A stretch of 64,000 bases of DNA. Source: Paracoccaceae bacterium. Lineage in GTDB: Bacteria; Pseudomonadota; Alphaproteobacteria; Rhodobacterales; Rhodobacteraceae. The notes beneath the pieces are model-generated. The model made no database searches. It saw only the letters and a list, made by a program, of their open reading frames with translations, and was not told where the DNA came from. Numbering within the stretch: the first letter of the stretch is position 1; every line of letters starts with the position of its first letter. This document shows positions 44,606-55,623 of the stretch, piece by piece. Where the stretch lies: NCBI GenBank assembly GCA_017854585.1, contig JAFMHK010000009.1, positions 1-64,000 of the forward strand, written 5' to 3'. The position numbers and the translations under genes were made by a program.

Positions 44606-46000
44606 TCAACGTTCGATCTGATAGGGCAGCGTATCGCGGTGGTTGGGGTCCACACGCAGTTTGCGTTCAAGCGGCGGCACGGCGCGTTGGTGGCAATTGG
44701 CCCGTTCACAGATACGGCACGAAATGCCGATGGGCTGAAACGCGGCGTCGGATGCAAGGTCAAGGCCGTCTGCATAGACAAGGGCGGGGGCGTGTTTCAC
44801 CTCGCACCCCAAGGAAATGGCGAAGCGGCGCAGCGGTGCGCCCCATGCCCCACCTGACTTGGACACGTCGCGCGCAAGAATCACATAGCGTGCACCATCG
44901 GGTGTTTCCGCCAGTTGGCGCAAGAACCGACCCGGCGACTCAAACGCCGAATGGACATTCCAGAGCGGGCAGGCCCCTCCGAAGCGCGCGAATTGAAGCC
45001 GCGTGGCGGAATGGCGTTTGGTGACCGTTCCGGCCTGATCGACACGGGCGAAGAAGAAGGGCACGCCCTTGGCGCCCGGGCGCTGCAGCGTGGACAAACG
45101 ATGCGCAATCTGTTCGATCGATGCGCCGAACTGGATCGAAAGGCGTTCCAGATCATGGCGGGTTTCGGCGGCGGCGGCGGCAAACCGGGTGTAGGGCATC
45201 AAGACCGCACCGGCGAAGTAATTGGCCATGCCGATCTGCGCGATGGCGCGGGCGACATCGGATTGGAACCGGGCAAGGTCAAGGGTGGCGCTTAGCAGGC
45301 GGTCTTCGGCAAGAAGCGCGTATTGGTGAAGAAGCTGGAACCTTTGTGTTTCAGGGGCCGCGCGGGGCGACAGGGTCAGCACCCGTGTGGCGGGATCATA
45401 GTGGCGAACCCCGTCGCCGGCGCTGTGGCGAATGGTGATGCCCATCGCCTCCAAGGCGTGTACGGCATGCACGGCAAGATCGCCCTTGGCCTGCGACGCA
45501 AAGCGTTCGGCGGCATGATCGACGGCGTCGATGTAGTTGTCGCAATAATGGAAGAAATCGCGCACCTCTTCCCACGGGCTGGAGGTGGTGGAGCCATCGC
45601 GGCCAAGCGCCTCGTCCAGAGAGGCAAGGCGTTCGTGGGTTTGACGATAGGCGCGATGCAGGTCGAGGAATGCGCGGGCAAGGGCGGGCGCATTGGCCGC
45701 GACAAGCCGCAGATCGGGCAATGGCGGGCCGACGTCCGTGAATACAGGATCTGCCAGCGCCTCACGCATGTCCGAGACGAGGCGTTCCGTGTCGCCGGAC
45801 CCAAGGGCCGCGACATCAACGCCGCATTCCTGTGCCAGACCAAGGATAACGGCGCCGGAAACGGGGCGGTTGTTGTTCTCCATCTGGTTCAGATACGGAA
45901 GCGAGATGCCAAGCTTGGCCGCGAAATCCTTTTGCGTCAGGCCGAGCCGCGTTCGGATCTCGCGCAGTTTGGCGCCGATGTAGAGCTTTTGGGTTGGCAT
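44606..46000 (-). CDS. pccR: short-chain fatty acyl-CoA regulator PccR
   Basis: The 464-residue protein combines an N-terminal XRE-type helix-turn-helix (REIRTRLGLTQKDFAAKLGI, about 10-60), an IrrE-like peptidase-related region and a C-terminal DUF2083 region ending in a cysteine cluster (CRICERANCHQ). This is the ScfR group; PccR of Rhodobacter sphaeroides activates propionyl-CoA carboxylase genes. Its own upstream region and that of pccB, 1.4 kb away, hold TTTGCAAA-type sites. GAGG shortly upstream selects ATG 46000; the frame opens earlier (46042) across the operator. Confidence 0.93.
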   Translation of the reverse strand: MPTQKLYIGAKLREIRTRLGLTQKDFAAKLGISLPYLNQMENNNRPVSGAVILGLAQECGVDVAALGSGDTERLVSDMREALADPVFTDVGPPLPDLRLVAANAPALARAFLDLHRAYRQTHERLASLDEALGRDGSTTSSPWEEVRDFFHYCDNYIDAVDHAAERFASQAKGDLAVHAVHALEAMGITIRHSAGDGVRHYDPATRVLTLSPRAAPETQRFQLLHQYALLAEDRLLSATLDLARFQSDVARAIAQIGMANYFAGAVLMPYTRFAAAAAETRHDLERLSIQFGASIEQIAHRLSTLQRPGAKGVPFFFARVDQAGTVTKRHSATRLQFARFGGACPLWNVHSAFESPGRFLRQLAETPDGARYVILARDVSKSGGAWGAPLRRFAISLGCEVKHAPALVYADGLDLASDAAFQPIGISCRICERANCHQRAVPPLERKLRVDPNHRDTLPYQIER

Positions 46001-46013
46001 GGGGGCCTCTGGC

Positions 46014-46043
46014 TTTGCAATGCGCATTGTGACGGTTTGCAAA
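46014..46043. promoter_or_regulatory. PccR-type sites upstream of pccR
   Basis: TTTGCAAT (46014-46021) and TTTGCAAA (46036-46043) lie 14-43 bases upstream of the pccR start codon. The first overlaps a perfect 12-base palindrome CAATGCGCATTG (46018-46029). They match half-sites of the known PccR operator TTTGCAAA-X4-TTTGCAAA, though the spacing is 14, not 4. Their position suggests autoregulation. Confidence 0.6.
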
Positions 46044-46063: not shown

Positions 46064-47281
46064 TCAGCCGCCCATGACGTGCTTTTCGCGCCGGATCGTA
46101 TAGAGGATGGCTGCGACCCCCAATGCGGACGTCGCCAGCATGATCCAGATCAGTGGAAACGCCCCCTCGCCGCGCGTGAGCATCGTGCCCGCCACCGCCG
46201 ACAGCGCCGCGCCGCCGCCCAGCATGATCGCCCCGCCAAGCCCCGAGGCCGTGCCTGCAAGATGCGGGCGCACCGACAACATGCCAGACGTCGCGTTGGG
46301 CAACACCATTCCGTTGCCGAACCCAACGAAGGTCATGAAGCCGAAGAACACCAAGGCCGTCTTCAACCCCAGCGTGAAGAGCAGCAGCGACAGCAGCAGC
46401 CCGGTCATGGATGCGATGGCGCCCGCGAGGATCATCATGTTGATGCCGAACCGGACCGAATAGCGACCTGAAATGAAGTTGCCGAAGAAATAACCAAGCG
46501 CCGGCGCGCCGAAGAAGAACCCGACGACTGAGGGGGGCAGGCCGAACACCTCGGAGCCAACATAGGGCGCGCCACCGAGATAGGCGAAGAACGCACCCGA
46601 TGCGAATGCGGCCGACAGGCAGTAGCCCCAGAACCGGCGCGAGGCGAGAAGTTCGGGGTATTGGGCAACCTGCTGGCGGAAATTGCTGGTATTTTTCGGG
46701 GCTGTTTCGCCCAGATCGCGCACGGTCAGGGCCATCGCCGCAAGGCCAAGGATCACCATGAGGACGAAGTTCGCCTGCCAGCCCAGATATTGATCAAGCA
46801 GGCCGCCGAACGCCGGACCGATCATTGGCACAACCGCCATACCCATCGTGACATACCCGATCATCGAGGCTGCTTCGGTCGGGCCGACCATGTCGCGCAC
46901 AATTGCGCGGCCCAGCACAAGACCCGCGACGATAACCGCCTGCATCATGCGGAAGAACAAGAACACCTCGATCGATGGAGCCATAAGGCAGCCAAGTGTC
47001 GCGATCAGGAAAAGCGTCATGCACCATAGCAGAACCGGCCGCCGACCAAAGCGGTCCGAGATAGGCCCGATCAGCAATTGCAGCGCTGCGTTTACCGCCA
47101 GATACAACGAGACCGACAGCTGCATGACCCGGTATTCGGTGTCGAAATACACGGCCATCTGCGGCAGCGACGGCAGAAAGATGTTCAGCGTCAGGGCGCC
47201 AAGGCCGGTCATCACGATCAACGTGAAGATATGTGGGGGCGTGGTGCGGTCCAGGAACCGGACGATCGGTCGGGATGTCAT
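46064..47281 (-). CDS. Bcr/CflA family MFS drug-efflux transporter
   Basis: The 405-residue protein has twelve hydrophobic helices. The Bcr/CflA group is indicated by LPSLPQMAVYFDTEYRVMQLSVSLYL, GPISDRFGRRPVLL (MFS motif A) and GRAIVRDMVGPTEAASMIG. Proton-driven efflux of drugs or metabolites is expected. It ends about 20 bases upstream of the pccR operator and diverges from pccB across a 192-base region with the PccR array, so PccR could affect it too. Confidence 0.92.
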   Translation of the reverse strand: MTSRPIVRFLDRTTPPHIFTLIVMTGLGALTLNIFLPSLPQMAVYFDTEYRVMQLSVSLYLAVNAALQLLIGPISDRFGRRPVLLWCMTLFLIATLGCLMAPSIEVFLFFRMMQAVIVAGLVLGRAIVRDMVGPTEAASMIGYVTMGMAVVPMIGPAFGGLLDQYLGWQANFVLMVILGLAAMALTVRDLGETAPKNTSNFRQQVAQYPELLASRRFWGYCLSAAFASGAFFAYLGGAPYVGSEVFGLPPSVVGFFFGAPALGYFFGNFISGRYSVRFGINMMILAGAIASMTGLLLSLLLFTLGLKTALVFFGFMTFVGFGNGMVLPNATSGMLSVRPHLAGTASGLGGAIMLGGGAALSAVAGTMLTRGEGAFPLIWIMLATSALGVAAILYTIRREKHVMGG

Positions 47282-47341
47282 GCAATACTGCTATGACCCG
47301 CGCGCGGGCACGTCCAGCGCAATCTGCACCGAACCGTCCAG

Positions 47342-47389
47342 TTTGCGAGTTTGCAAGTTTGCGAAGCGAGCGATACAGATTTTTGCAAA
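47342..47389. promoter_or_regulatory. tandem PccR operator array upstream of pccB
   Basis: Three contiguous octamers, TTTGCGAG, TTTGCAAG and TTTGCGAA (47342-47365), are followed by a fourth, TTTGCAAA, at 47382-47389, exactly two octamer lengths later. All start points are multiples of eight apart. They resemble PccR half-sites. The array is about 85-130 bases before the pccB start codon and 60-110 bases before the divergent MFS start. Confidence 0.75.
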
Positions 47390-47473
47390 TATTCCAAATC
47401 GGACTCGCCCCCGCGCGGCGGCCCCGTTACCTTGGCTGCAAAAGCGCCGCGGGGACGCGATGTGGAGGGACAG

Positions 47474-49006
47474 ATGAAAGACATTCTGGAACAGCTGGAA
47501 CAACGTCGCGCCGACGCCAGGTTGGGCGGCGGGCAAAACCGGATCGATGCACAGCACGCCAAGGGCAAGCTGACGGCGCGCGAACGGATCGAGCTGTTGC
47601 TGGATGAGGACAGTTTCGAAGAATACGACATGTTCGTCACGCACCGTTCCACTGATTTCGGGATGGCGGCGTCCAAACCGCGCGGCGATGGGGTCGTGAC
47701 CGGCTGGGGCACGGTGAACGGCCGTGTGGTATACGTGTTCGCACAGGATTTCACCGTTCTGGGTGGGTCGGTGTCGGAAACCCATGGCGCGAAGATCTGC
47801 AAGATCATGGATATGGCGATGCAGAACGGCGCGCCGGTGATCGGTATCAACGATTCCGGCGGCGCGCGCATTCAGGAAGGGGTGGCGTCGCTGGCGGCTT
47901 ATGGCGAGGTGTTCCAGCGCAACATCGAAGCCTCGGGCGTGGTGCCGCAGATCAGCCTGATCATGGGGCCGTGTGCGGGGGGCGCTGTCTATTCCCCGGC
48001 GATGACCGACTTCATCTTCATGGTGAAGGATTCGAGCTACATGTTCGTGACCGGCCCGGATGTCGTGAAGACCGTGACGAACGAACATGTGACCGCCGAG
48101 CAGTTGGGGGGGGCCTCGACCCACACCCGGAAATCATCCGTCGCCGATGGCGCCTTCGAGGATGACGTGGAGGCGATGTCGGAAGTGCGCCGGCTGATTG
48201 ATTTCCTGCCGCTGTCGAATCGCGAAAAGCCCCCTGTGCGACCGTTCTATGATGATCCGAGCCGGGTGGAGGAAAGCCTTGATACGCTGATCCCCGATAA
48301 CCCGAACATGCCCTATGACATGAAAGAGCTGATCCACAAGCTGGCGGATGAAGGCGATTTCTATGAGCTTCAAGCCGATTTCGCGGGCAACATCCTGACG
48401 GGGTTCATCCGGCTTGAGGGGCAGACCGTGGGCGTGGTGGCGAACCAGCCGATGGTGTTGGCGGGGGTTCTGGATATTGACAGCGCGCGCAAGGCTGCGC
48501 GGTTCGTCCGGTTCTGCGACTGCTTTGAAATTCCGATCCTGACGCTGGTTGATGTTCCCGGTTTTCTGCCCGGCACGACGCAGGAATATAACGGCGTGAT
48601 CAAACATGGCGCCAAATTGCTGTTCGCTTATGGCGAGGCGACGGTGCCCAAGGTCACGGTGATTACCCGCAAGGCGTATGGTGGGGCCTATGTGGTGATG
48701 TCGTCAAAACACCTGCGCGGCGACGTGAACTATGCCTGGCCCACCGCCGAGATCGCGGTGATGGGCGCAAAGGGGGCGACCGAGATTCTGTATCGGTCCG
48801 AACTGGGCGACCCCGACAAGATCGCCGGGCGCGTGAAGGAATACGAGGATCAGTTCGCCAATCCCTTTGTCGCGGCGGAACGCGGGTTCATCGACGAGGT
48901 GATCCAGCCACGCAGTACTCGGAAACGGGTCTGCCGGGCCTTTGCAGCGCTCAGAACGAAACGGCGGCAGATGCCGTGGAAGAAACACGATAATATTCCG
49001 TTGTGA
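47474..49006 (+). CDS. pccB: propionyl-CoA carboxylase beta subunit (carboxyltransferase)
   Basis: PccB transfers the carboxyl group from biotin to propionyl-CoA, giving methylmalonyl-CoA. The 510-residue protein has the ACC/PCC carboxyltransferase blocks: [56 protein letters not shown] and, in the C-half, [25 protein letters not shown] and [15 protein letters not shown]. The Asp in the substrate loop that favours propionyl-CoA is consistent with the PccB group. GGAGG 5 bases upstream gives ATG 47474. It heads the pcc gene run. Confidence 0.96.
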
Positions 49007-52036: not shown

Positions 52037-54037
52037 ATGTTCAAGAAACTGCTCATCGCCAACCGGGGCGAAATTGCCTGCCGCGTGATCAAGACGGCGC
52101 GCCAGATGGGGATCACCACCGTGGCCATCTATTCCGATGCGGATAGGAATGCCCTGCATGTGAAAATGGCCGATGAGGCCATCCATATCGGCCCGTCGCC
52201 GGCATCCGAGTCCTATATCGTTATCGATAAGGTCATGGCCGCGATCAAGGCAAGCGGCGCCGAGGCGGTGCATCCGGGGTATGGGTTCTTGTCGGAAAAC
52301 CGCAAGTTCGCCGAAGCGTTGGAGGCTGCGGGCGTTGCTTTCGTCGGGCCACCCGCCACTGCGATCGAGGCGATGGGCGACAAGATCACGTCGAAGAAGC
52401 TGGCACAGGAGGCGGGGGTCAACACCGTGCCGGGGCATATGGGGTTGATCGAAGACGCAGCCGAAGCGATCACGATTTCGGGGATGATCGGCTACCCCGT
52501 GATGCTGAAGGCTTCGGCGGGCGGCGGTGGCAAGGGCATGCGCATCGCGTGGTCCGAAAGCGAAGTTGCCGAAGGGTTCCAGGCGTCAAAGAACGAGGCT
52601 GCCAGCAGCTTTGGCGATGACCGCATGTTCATCGAGAAGTTCGTGACCCAACCCCGGCACATCGAAATTCAGGTGCTGGCCGATCAACACGGCAACTGCG
52701 TCTATCTGGGTGAGCGGGAATGTTCGATCCAGCGGCGCAACCAAAAGGTGATCGAAGAAGCGCCAAGCCCGTTTCTGGATGCCGCTACCCGAAAGGCGAT
52801 GGGCGAACAGGCATGCGCGCTGGCGCAGGCGGTCGGCTATACCAGTGCGGGCACGGTTGAATTCATCGTCGACGGCGACCGCAACTTCTATTTCCTTGAG
52901 ATGAACACCCGGTTGCAGGTCGAACATCCGGTGACCGAACTGATCACGGGCATCGATCTGGTCGAACAGATGATCCGCGTGGCCTACGGAGAGGCGCTGC
53001 CGTTCACGCAAGGTGACATCAAGCTGAATGGCTGGGCGATGGAAAGCCGGCTTTATGCCGAAGATCCGTATCGCAATTTCCTGCCCTCCATCGGGCGGCT
53101 GGTTCAGTATCGTCCGCCGACCGAAATGGCCACGGAAACTGCGGTGGTGCGCAATGACACCGGCGTGTTCGAAGGCGGCGAAATCTCCAGGTTCTACGAC
53201 CCTATGATTGCCAAGCTGTGCACATGGGCACCGACCCGGTCCGAGGCGATCGAGGGGATGCGGAACGCGCTGGACGGGTTCGAGTTGGAGGGGATCGGGC
53301 ACAACCTGCCATTTCTGGCCGCCGTGATGGACCACCCGCGCTTTGAGAGCGGCAACATCACCACCGCCTTCATTGCCGAGGAATACCCCGACGGGTTCGA
53401 GGGTGTCACACCGGGGCCGGATGTATTGCGGCGTCTGGCTGCGGTTGCCGCCCACATGAAGATGTTGAAAGAGGATCGCGCGGCTAAGATCAGTGGCGCG
53501 ATGGCCAACCACACGCGCCGCGTCGCGACCGATTATGTCGTGCGCGTCGGCAAGACGGATTTCCCGGTCCATATCGACGAGACGGATTTCGGGACCGAGA
53601 TCATCTTTAGCGATGGCACGCTATACAAGGTGAATTCCGACTGGCGGCTGGGCGATACCCTGTTCAAGGGGCAAGTCGGTGATGTGCCGATGATCGTCAA
53701 GACGGCGTTCATTCCCGGCGGCGCGCGGTTGCGGTACCGCGGCGCGGACCTGAAGGCGGTCGTGCGCACCCCCCGGCAGGCGGAACTGGCGGCGCTGATG
53801 CCCGAGAAACTTCCGCCCGATACATCGAACCTGCTGCTGTGTCCGATGCCGGGGCTGATCGTGAAGGTCGATGTGGCCGTCGGTGACGAGGTGCAGGACG
53901 GTCAGGCGCTCTGCACGATCGAAGCGATGAAGATGGAGAATATCCTGCGGGCCGGACGCAGGGGCGTGATCGCCAAGATCAACGCCAATGCGGGCGACAG
54001 TCTGGCCGTCGATGACGTGATCATGGAGTTCGAGTGA
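52037..54037 (+). CDS. pccA: propionyl-CoA carboxylase alpha subunit (biotin carboxylase plus biotin carrier)
   Basis: PccA carboxylates biotin with ATP and bicarbonate. The 666-residue protein has the biotin-carboxylase start FKKLLIANRGEIACRVI, the ATP-grasp glycine loop SAGGGGKGMR, MNTRLQVEHPVTE in the active site, and a C-terminal biotinyl domain with EAMKMEN (biotinylated Lys632). Between them is the BT-like region (about 470-590) that docks PccB. Length and motifs are normal. It converges with the DUF4174 gene, 49 bases away. Confidence 0.96.
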   Translation: MFKKLLIANRGEIACRVIKTARQMGITTVAIYSDADRNALHVKMADEAIHIGPSPASESYIVIDKVMAAIKASGAEAVHPGYGFLSENRKFAEALEAAGVAFVGPPATAIEAMGDKITSKKLAQEAGVNTVPGHMGLIEDAAEAITISGMIGYPVMLKASAGGGGKGMRIAWSESEVAEGFQASKNEAASSFGDDRMFIEKFVTQPRHIEIQVLADQHGNCVYLGERECSIQRRNQKVIEEAPSPFLDAATRKAMGEQACALAQAVGYTSAGTVEFIVDGDRNFYFLEMNTRLQVEHPVTELITGIDLVEQMIRVAYGEALPFTQGDIKLNGWAMESRLYAEDPYRNFLPSIGRLVQYRPPTEMATETAVVRNDTGVFEGGEISRFYDPMIAKLCTWAPTRSEAIEGMRNALDGFELEGIGHNLPFLAAVMDHPRFESGNITTAFIAEEYPDGFEGVTPGPDVLRRLAAVAAHMKMLKEDRAAKISGAMANHTRRVATDYVVRVGKTDFPVHIDETDFGTEIIFSDGTLYKVNSDWRLGDTLFKGQVGDVPMIVKTAFIPGGARLRYRGADLKAVVRTPRQAELAALMPEKLPPDTSNLLLCPMPGLIVKVDVAVGDEVQDGQALCTIEAMKMENILRAGRRGVIAKINANAGDSLAVDDVIMEFE

Positions 54038-54717: not shown

Positions 54718-55623
54718 ATGGACGTCATCTTGCACGTGGGTGCCCACCGCACCGCAACCACAACCCTGCAACGTATGATGGGGGCCAGCAACCACGCAAC
54801 GGCCGCCGCCGGCGTGGCCTATTGGGGGCCCAAACGCACCCGTGGGGGGTTGTTCAACGGGTTGGGCGACCTGACGGTGCCACGGCAACGGCAGCGCGCG
54901 TTGGCCCGGATCCGGTTTCATGCGGCGCAATTGGCAAAGGACGGGCATCGCGCGCTGCTGATCAGTGACGAAAACATGCTGGGCACCTTGCGACGCAACA
55001 CCACCGATCTGCGGCTGTATCCCGGGGCCGCCGACCTGCTGACGCCGTTGGGCGGGGCATTGGCCGACCATCGGCTGACCGTGGCCATGGGCATTCGCAG
55101 CTATGACAGCTATTGGGCCTCTGTCTTGGCATTTCGTCTGGGGCGGGGCGGGCCGCTGCCGACACCGGGTATGGTGGATCGCCTGATTGCGCAGCCACAT
55201 CGCTGGCGCCACATCACCGCCAGCGTGGCGGCTGCCGTGCCACAGGCGCGCGTCGTTGTCTGGACCCACGAAAGAATGGGCGCGCGGCCTGATCGGCTCG
55301 TGCGCGAACTGACCGGGGCGGACATGACCTTGAGTGGTGCCGATGCGTGGACCAACACCATGCCCAGCATTGGCAGGTTGCGCGAGACGGTGGAAGATTT
55401 CGGTGGCGACCCGGCCCTGATCCGCGAAGTTTCCGGACGCTTCATGCCATTTGACCACGATCAGCGCGCCACGCTGCGCGCACAGTATTCCGAGGATCTG
55501 ACCTGGCTGCGCGCCGGGGCGGGTGGCCTCGCGACATTGATCGACGACCCCGCCACAGAGCTGGGCGCGACAGGACAAGGAAGAGGATTTGACCATGACG
55601 CAGAGCACAGAGGCCTGGCGTAA
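54718..55623 (+). CDS. sulfotransferase-like protein
   Basis: The 301-residue protein begins [20 protein letters not shown], resembling the PAPS-binding loop H-x-G-x-x-x-T/S-G-T-T of sulfotransferases, though Gly is replaced by Ala at one position. The following helix and the [10 protein letters not shown] segment fit the family; catalysis is not certain. CGGAGGG 9 bases upstream marks ATG 54718. Its 3' end overlaps the mutase start by 29 bases, so the two should be co-transcribed. Confidence 0.65.

Follow-up and report, generated by a model that had tools for sequence, protein, structure and literature searches.

Genes and Features of the Locus

In the window (the whole stretch of 64,000 nucleotides that was analysed), the gene pccB, encoding the carboxyltransferase subunit of propionyl-CoA carboxylase, is located at 47474–49006 on the forward strand (PF01039, 665.9 bits), and among the frames downstream of it a pccA-like biotin carboxylase at 52037 and a mutase at 55589 were named by eye. 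The gene of a Bcr/CflA-type MFS transporter (46064–47281, reverse strand; TIGR00710, 245.3 bits, above the cut-off of 200.9) is divergent from pccB, and the gap between the two starts (47281 and 47474) is 192 bp. Adjoining the MFS gene on its downstream side is pccR (44606–46000, reverse strand), the gene of an ScfR-family regulator (PF09856 with 234.4 bits, PF06114 and PF01381; E value of 2e-81 to PrpR structures).

All three domains of the ScfR family, namely the HTH, the IrrE-like and the C-terminal ScfRs domain, are over the Pfam cut-offs in this protein. It can be assigned to the PccR subclass (orthologues of the R. sphaeroides PccR beside pccB), with 70% identity over residues 4–462 to the pccR product of genome G051, whose gene is likewise located by pccB; against the RamB model (NF038139) it reaches 428.2 bits, below the cut-off of 700. 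The [4Fe4S] motif C-X2-C-X4-C and the cysteine of the GAF-like domain are both present, in CRICERANC and GGACPLW, which align with the cysteines of PrpR as given in the available part of PMC6765138.

Between the divergent genes, four octamers lie on the forward strand: TTTGCGAG (47342–47349), TTTGCAAG (47350–47357), TTTGCGAA (47358–47365) and TTTGCAAA (47382–47389). Their offsets from the first are 0, 8, 16 and 40 bp, so that the arrangement described in the earlier note, 8-bp steps with three contiguous octamers and a fourth two octamers further on, agrees with the coordinates. When TTTGCAAA, the anchor of the family profile and part of the proximal box, is set as position 0, the other three octamers are half-sites of the distal box at −40, −32 (the core half-site) and −24. 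At +8, a degenerate second proximal half-site, TATTC (47390–47394, forward strand), is found in place of the family consensus TTTGC, which is often TATGC; neither this half-site nor the related octamer pair in front of pccR (46014–46043) is mentioned in the earlier note.

Distribution of the Octamers

Taken singly, the elements of the array are not special. TTTGCRAR occurs 13 times in the window against 8.6 expected, and 13 or more were obtained in 10 of 100 shuffles. The pair TTTGCNNNTTWGC, i.e., two TTTGC words 8 bp apart, has 14 places in the window genome and 9 in the reversed control, which is near chance, and the lone 8-bp pair was therefore rejected as evidence. The triple TTTGC-N3-TTTGC-N3-TTTGC is found at one place in the 3.37-Mb genome (reversed control 0) and in 10 of 198 genomes of the family, the window genome included (reversed control 1 of 198); in five of these ten (G000, G047, G143, G160 and G175) it is near pccB, as judged by coordinates among the pccB matches listed.

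The composite TTTGC-N3-TTTGC-N27-TTTGCAAA, which joins distal and proximal elements, has 44 places in 43 of the 198 genomes and none in the reversed control, so a chance origin was rejected. As many as 42 of the 44 places sit 108–139 bp upstream of pccB; one further place is at pccB of G069 (by coordinates), and the remaining one, upstream of the propionate-CoA ligase gene of the same genome, fits the pathway.

Two-Box Architecture Upstream of pccB

The comparison drew on 80 named loci surrounding the best relatives of PccR and on the pccB loci of related genomes, in which pccB was placed by tblastn and the upstream regions were read. In the relatives, a distal TTTGC cluster is separated by poorly conserved DNA from TTTGCAAATTTGC or TTTGCAAATATGC on the proximal side. 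The test set comprised 156 genera with one genome each out of the 198 sampled, because close species would otherwise crowd the sample. pccB was matched in 183 of the 198 genomes, with the places listed in part, and the 156 genera stand for 155 of these 183 plus G028, which has a partial pccB; the pccB region of G069 itself and G155 were left out, and the upstream region of G194 ends at 141 bases.

Without any anchoring, direct pairs of TTTGC were found at distances of 8, 32 and 40 bp in 91, 87 and 90 of the 156 genera, respectively, compared with 0.3, 0.3 and 0.4 genera in first-order resamples (which are not exact shuffles). Other recurrent distances are 48 bp (43 genera), 25 bp (33), 15 bp (23) and 7 bp (22), and the 12-bp distance occurs in 3 of 156. 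With a position matrix trained on 86 loci without the window, some of whose genera also belong to the test set, an operator scoring higher than the reversed-control maximum of 6.1 is detected in 132 of 156 genera; 122 of 156 remain when the stricter reverse-complement maximum of 28.1 is applied. The window scores 35.0 and exceeds both maxima; its rank is as low as 107 of 156 because the +8 half-site has two mismatches, the −25 half-site is displaced and the −35 of the promoter is poor.

In these 132 genera, the half-sites relative to the proximal TTTGCAAA are located at −40, −32 and −25 in the distal box and at 0 and +8 in the proximal box. Exact TTTGC is present at 0 in 121 of 132 genera (all 132 within one mismatch), at −32 in 96 (123), at +8 in 70 (108), at −40 in 68 (110) and at −25 in 34 (80). 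Both −40 and −32 are exact in 47 of the 132 genera, 8 bp being the usual step from the first half-site of a box to the second. The window has TTTGC at −32, TTTGCAAA at 0 and the putative pccB promoter downstream, and we read its array, from this comparison of sequences, as the window genome's version of the two-box operator upstream of pccB in most of the genera examined. In six pccB loci outside the family (L139–L144) no anchor site was found. The literature searched, a body without the primary PccR paper and most subscription papers, did not describe a PccR operator of two boxes.

The 8-bp Register and the Third Distal Repeat

In the earlier note, the strict 8-bp register itself was regarded as the meaningful feature, which might let several PccR units bind on one face of the DNA. 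The comparison does not bear this out: the conserved feature is a pair of boxes in which TTTGC words recur at distances of 32 and 40 bp, and the 40 bp that separate the first octamer of the window from its fourth are this conserved distance between boxes. Geometry points the same way: a helix with 10.5 bp per turn makes 0.76 turn in 8 bp, 1.14 in 12 bp, 3.05 in 32 bp and 3.81 in 40 bp, and of these spacings only 32 bp returns to the same face. That is to say, the half-sites at −32 and 0, about three turns apart, lie on the same side of the DNA.

The third distal half-site departs from an 8-bp register in the family, where the position −25, 7 bp past −32, is preferred to −24 (exact TTTGC in 34 versus 5 of 132 genera; −24 within one mismatch in 17). 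At other Rhodobacteraceae pccB genes, where the earlier note had proposed to check the spacing, 8-bp pairs recur and the contiguous triple is rare, exact −40/−32/−24 being present in 3 of 132 genera (G000, G047 and G143). Among six near relatives with pccB to hand (L036–L041), TTTGC at −24 is absent from all, and GCAAA at −9 (octamer −12) is kept in five and lost in the window. The window array represents one of the local forms of an operator in which half-sites come and go. Instead of a special one-face 8-bp array, the comparison gives an operator of two boxes around a 32-bp core, spread through the family and present in the window in a partly degenerate and locally rearranged form.

It is very unlikely that the contiguous register is functional in the way first proposed, with PccR units side by side in an extended complex. 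The three contiguous half-sites of the window, the 47 genera with exact −40/−32 and the 70 with exact +8 are what it would explain; the exact triple in 3 of 132 genera, the empty −24 position in the near relatives and the rotation of the helix by 274 degrees over 8 bp all argue against it. As for the third repeat alone, it would be a lineage-specific variant of the half-site usually at −25, and it may matter little or may tune affinity now that the −12 half-site, still present in near relatives, has been lost. That it is a neutral product of slippage or a small indel beside the ancestral −40/−32 pair, without regulatory effect, has a chance somewhat below even: its position one base off the family's and its absence from the six near relatives are in favour, while the full TTTGCGAA is retained, and the missing GCAAA at −9 would fit compensation.

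Comparison with Known ScfR Systems

The PccR operator of Rhodobacter (Cereibacter) sphaeroides pccB, in the work of Carter and Alber of 2015, is reportedly TTTGCAAA-X4-TTTGCAAA, which has a 12-bp period. Of the 198 genomes, 3 contain exact TTTGCAAA-N4-TTTGCAAA; at pccB it was seen in a single one of them, G051, which is probably R. sphaeroides. The pccB upstream region of G051 contains TTTGCAAA-GTCA-TTTGCAAA (−12 and 0) together with TTTGC at −32 and −25, so the published motif sits within the wider architecture. In the window genome this motif has no place, and the octamer at −12 is GCGATACA. Accordingly, the 12-bp motif was rejected as a family rule, and the view that the array deviates from such a rule loses its ground. 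The window and the R. sphaeroides operator share the gene, the regulator family and the half-site word; unlike the latter, the window is without the −12 octamer and has −40, −32 and −24. The motif of one species thereby falls under a broader rule for the operator, which 132 of the 156 genera show, and the two-box rule also accounts for the periodic look of the window.

The RamB site of the glyoxylate-cycle operon of Paracoccus denitrificans belongs to the same family of regulators. In the available part of PMC10370305, its two boxes are 18 bp apart in an 80-bp fragment with 17-bp ends, and both boxes are required for activation. From this arithmetic, and as far as the part available gives the fragment, the boxes are 14 bp long and their starts 32 bp apart, the same distance as that of the core half-sites here. 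Although the site resembles that of the window in having two boxes with this distance, its half-site letters are different (the boxes begin with TGACAA), and so are its subclass and target.

PrpR of Mycobacterium tuberculosis is a tetramer in the available part of PMC6765138, and its DNA-binding domain was truncated there. Its site, according to the same part of PMC6765138, resembles the window in having TTTGCAAA and TTTGCgAA in tandem and a homologous regulator, and differs in having one base between the octamers (a 9-bp period) and in being a single 17-bp site. The solved PrpR chains align with the window PccR from residue 71 onward only. Since their DNA-binding domain is truncated as far as the available part of that source shows, the two-box rule offers a direct test of how a PrpR-type tetramer that senses acyl-CoA reads DNA. 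On the parts of these sources available, a 32-bp box distance is common to two acyl-CoA regulators, PccR (here) and RamB.

PccR and the Probable Promoter of pccB

A PccR relative is present in 170 of the 198 genomes; of the 28 genomes without a match, 20 are listed as such and 8 were deduced from their absence in the table. When an orthologue is defined by a best E value below 1e-110, a cut-off chosen after the hit list was known, 130 of the 156 genera have both operator and PccR, 2 the operator only, 3 PccR only and 21 neither; under a looser rule (any hit at 1e-60), the numbers are 131, 1, 9 and 15. The two genera with an operator and no orthologue (G028 and G159) are represented by fragmented assemblies of about 450 contigs, and those with a PccR relative and no detected operator are G004, G017 and G077. 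In G011, PccB is 89% identical to that of the window, and neither PccR nor the operator is present. Because genera share ancestry, these counts mean a strong association and not that many independent events.

An architecture that recurs family-wide and co-occurs with PccR makes it very probable that the array serves PccR as its operator at pccB, as the earlier note had supposed; the comparison supports this predicted assignment well. Another ScfR-type regulator of the window genome in its place is most improbable. A second protein with an ScfRs domain is encoded at C17 (45.9 bits), and TTTGC-type sites are used by other ScfR proteins in the partly available literature; the C17 protein is 26% identical to the window PccR with a divergent HTH, TTTGCRAR occurs once within 10 kb of its gene against 1.25 expected, and it is PccR with which the operator co-occurs.

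Two pairs of family columns downstream of the operator, +22/+23 (C 95%, T 98%) and +46/+47 (T 79%, A 79%), are at a fixed distance from it and are read as belonging to the −35 and −10 of pccB. The proximal box would therefore lie just upstream of the −35, the region where activators bind. In the window, the probable −35 is CTCGCC (47404–47409, forward strand, profile position +22 to +27; family CTTTGG) and the probable −10 is TACCTT (47428–47433, forward strand, +46 to +51; family TATGGT), both of which are poor. A −35 that departs from the family form may mean a stronger reliance on the activator. The word ACTCG, similar to the divergent −35 of the window, is also present in several near relatives.

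Taken as a whole, the best explanation, with a probability of roughly 0.8, is an operator by which PccR (46000–44606) would control pccB, its two TTTGC boxes being contacted from one face. Both boxes consist of tandem TTTGC half-sites, which lie at −40, −32 and, in the window, −24 in the distal box and at 0 and +8 in the proximal one. Since the RamB boxes are 32 bp apart and both needed, and PrpR is a tetramer, we infer that PccR, presumably tetrameric like PrpR, reads both boxes from one face as a single tetramer. Loaded with a short-chain acyl-CoA, PccR may then help RNA polymerase at a weak promoter; judged from the −10, the start site of pccB would be roughly 52 bp past the proximal box in the downstream direction.

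The Divergent MFS Gene

The probable −35 of the MFS gene is TGGACG on the reverse strand (47311–47316; offset −71), and TGGACA is conserved upstream of the MFS gene in relatives. The corresponding word TGTCCA is exact in 58 of 132 genera, at offsets from −143 to −49, and has no exact match in 74. In the window the word has one mismatch and the modal offset (25 of 58 are at −73 to −69), and 44 of the 58 offsets fall into three of seven helical-phase bins.

The proposal of the earlier note that the array could serve pccB and the MFS gene together has arguments on both sides: the preferred helical phase partly speaks for it, whereas the offset of the MFS −35 varies and the spacing of the pccB −35 is fixed. 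An operator that is bidirectional, setting the divergent MFS transcription as well, is rather unlikely. Its position between both promoters, the modal offset of the window and the phase bias speak for it. The spread of the offsets and the 74 genera without the exact word speak against it, as does G011, which keeps the MFS gene (75% identical) and the TGGACG word without operator or PccR; moreover, in several genera (L125, L127 and L134) it is pccR and not the MFS gene that is divergent to pccB.

Sites at pccR, prpE and Elsewhere

Upstream of pccR, read on its reverse strand, the octamer pair at 46014–46043 consists of TTTGCAAA (46036–46043) and TTTGCAAT (46014–46021, as read on the forward strand), 22 bp apart, and is a probable autoregulatory site. 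Of 81 regions upstream of pccR, 80 contain TTTGCAAA, compared with 0 of 81 control stretches taken from within the gene, which suggests autoregulation. For the second octamer at pccR, distances of 30, 22 and 21 bp are the most frequent, so the 32-bp rule is not rigid.

For prpE, 30 upstream loci (L286–L315) were taken from 57 matching genomes of 61 searched, and 9 of 30 score above the reversed-control maximum of −8.7. A pccB-type operator is found upstream of prpE in G003 (L302, score 46.3) and, as the exact composite, in G069 (L159, 1501–1548). G043, G027 and G037 reach 7.0 to 14.4, the rest of the nine stay below 0, and these seem to be arrangements of a different kind. TTTGCAAA-N2-TTTGC, with a 10-bp period, was seen by eye in 11 of the 30 regions. 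The prpE of the window genome (L312) has a best score of −39.5 and no TTTGCAAA-N2-TTTGC site.

A general rule for ScfR activators can be put forward tentatively, as an idea with somewhat less than an even chance: a single tetramer would bridge two boxes with a 32-bp (three-turn) core, both facing one side of DNA that is not looped, the spacing within a box (8, 9, 10 or 12 bp) would drift, and pccB operators across a bacterial family would gain or lose single TTTGC half-sites around the fixed core. Given the spacing at pccR and the other common arrangement at prpE, 32 bp is not universal for such sites. In G149, where no pccB match was obtained at E 1e-200, a long tandem TTTGCGGG array (L006, G149:C1 near 1882281–1882453) gives 24 overlapping matches of the triple pattern and is apparently unrelated to the operator.
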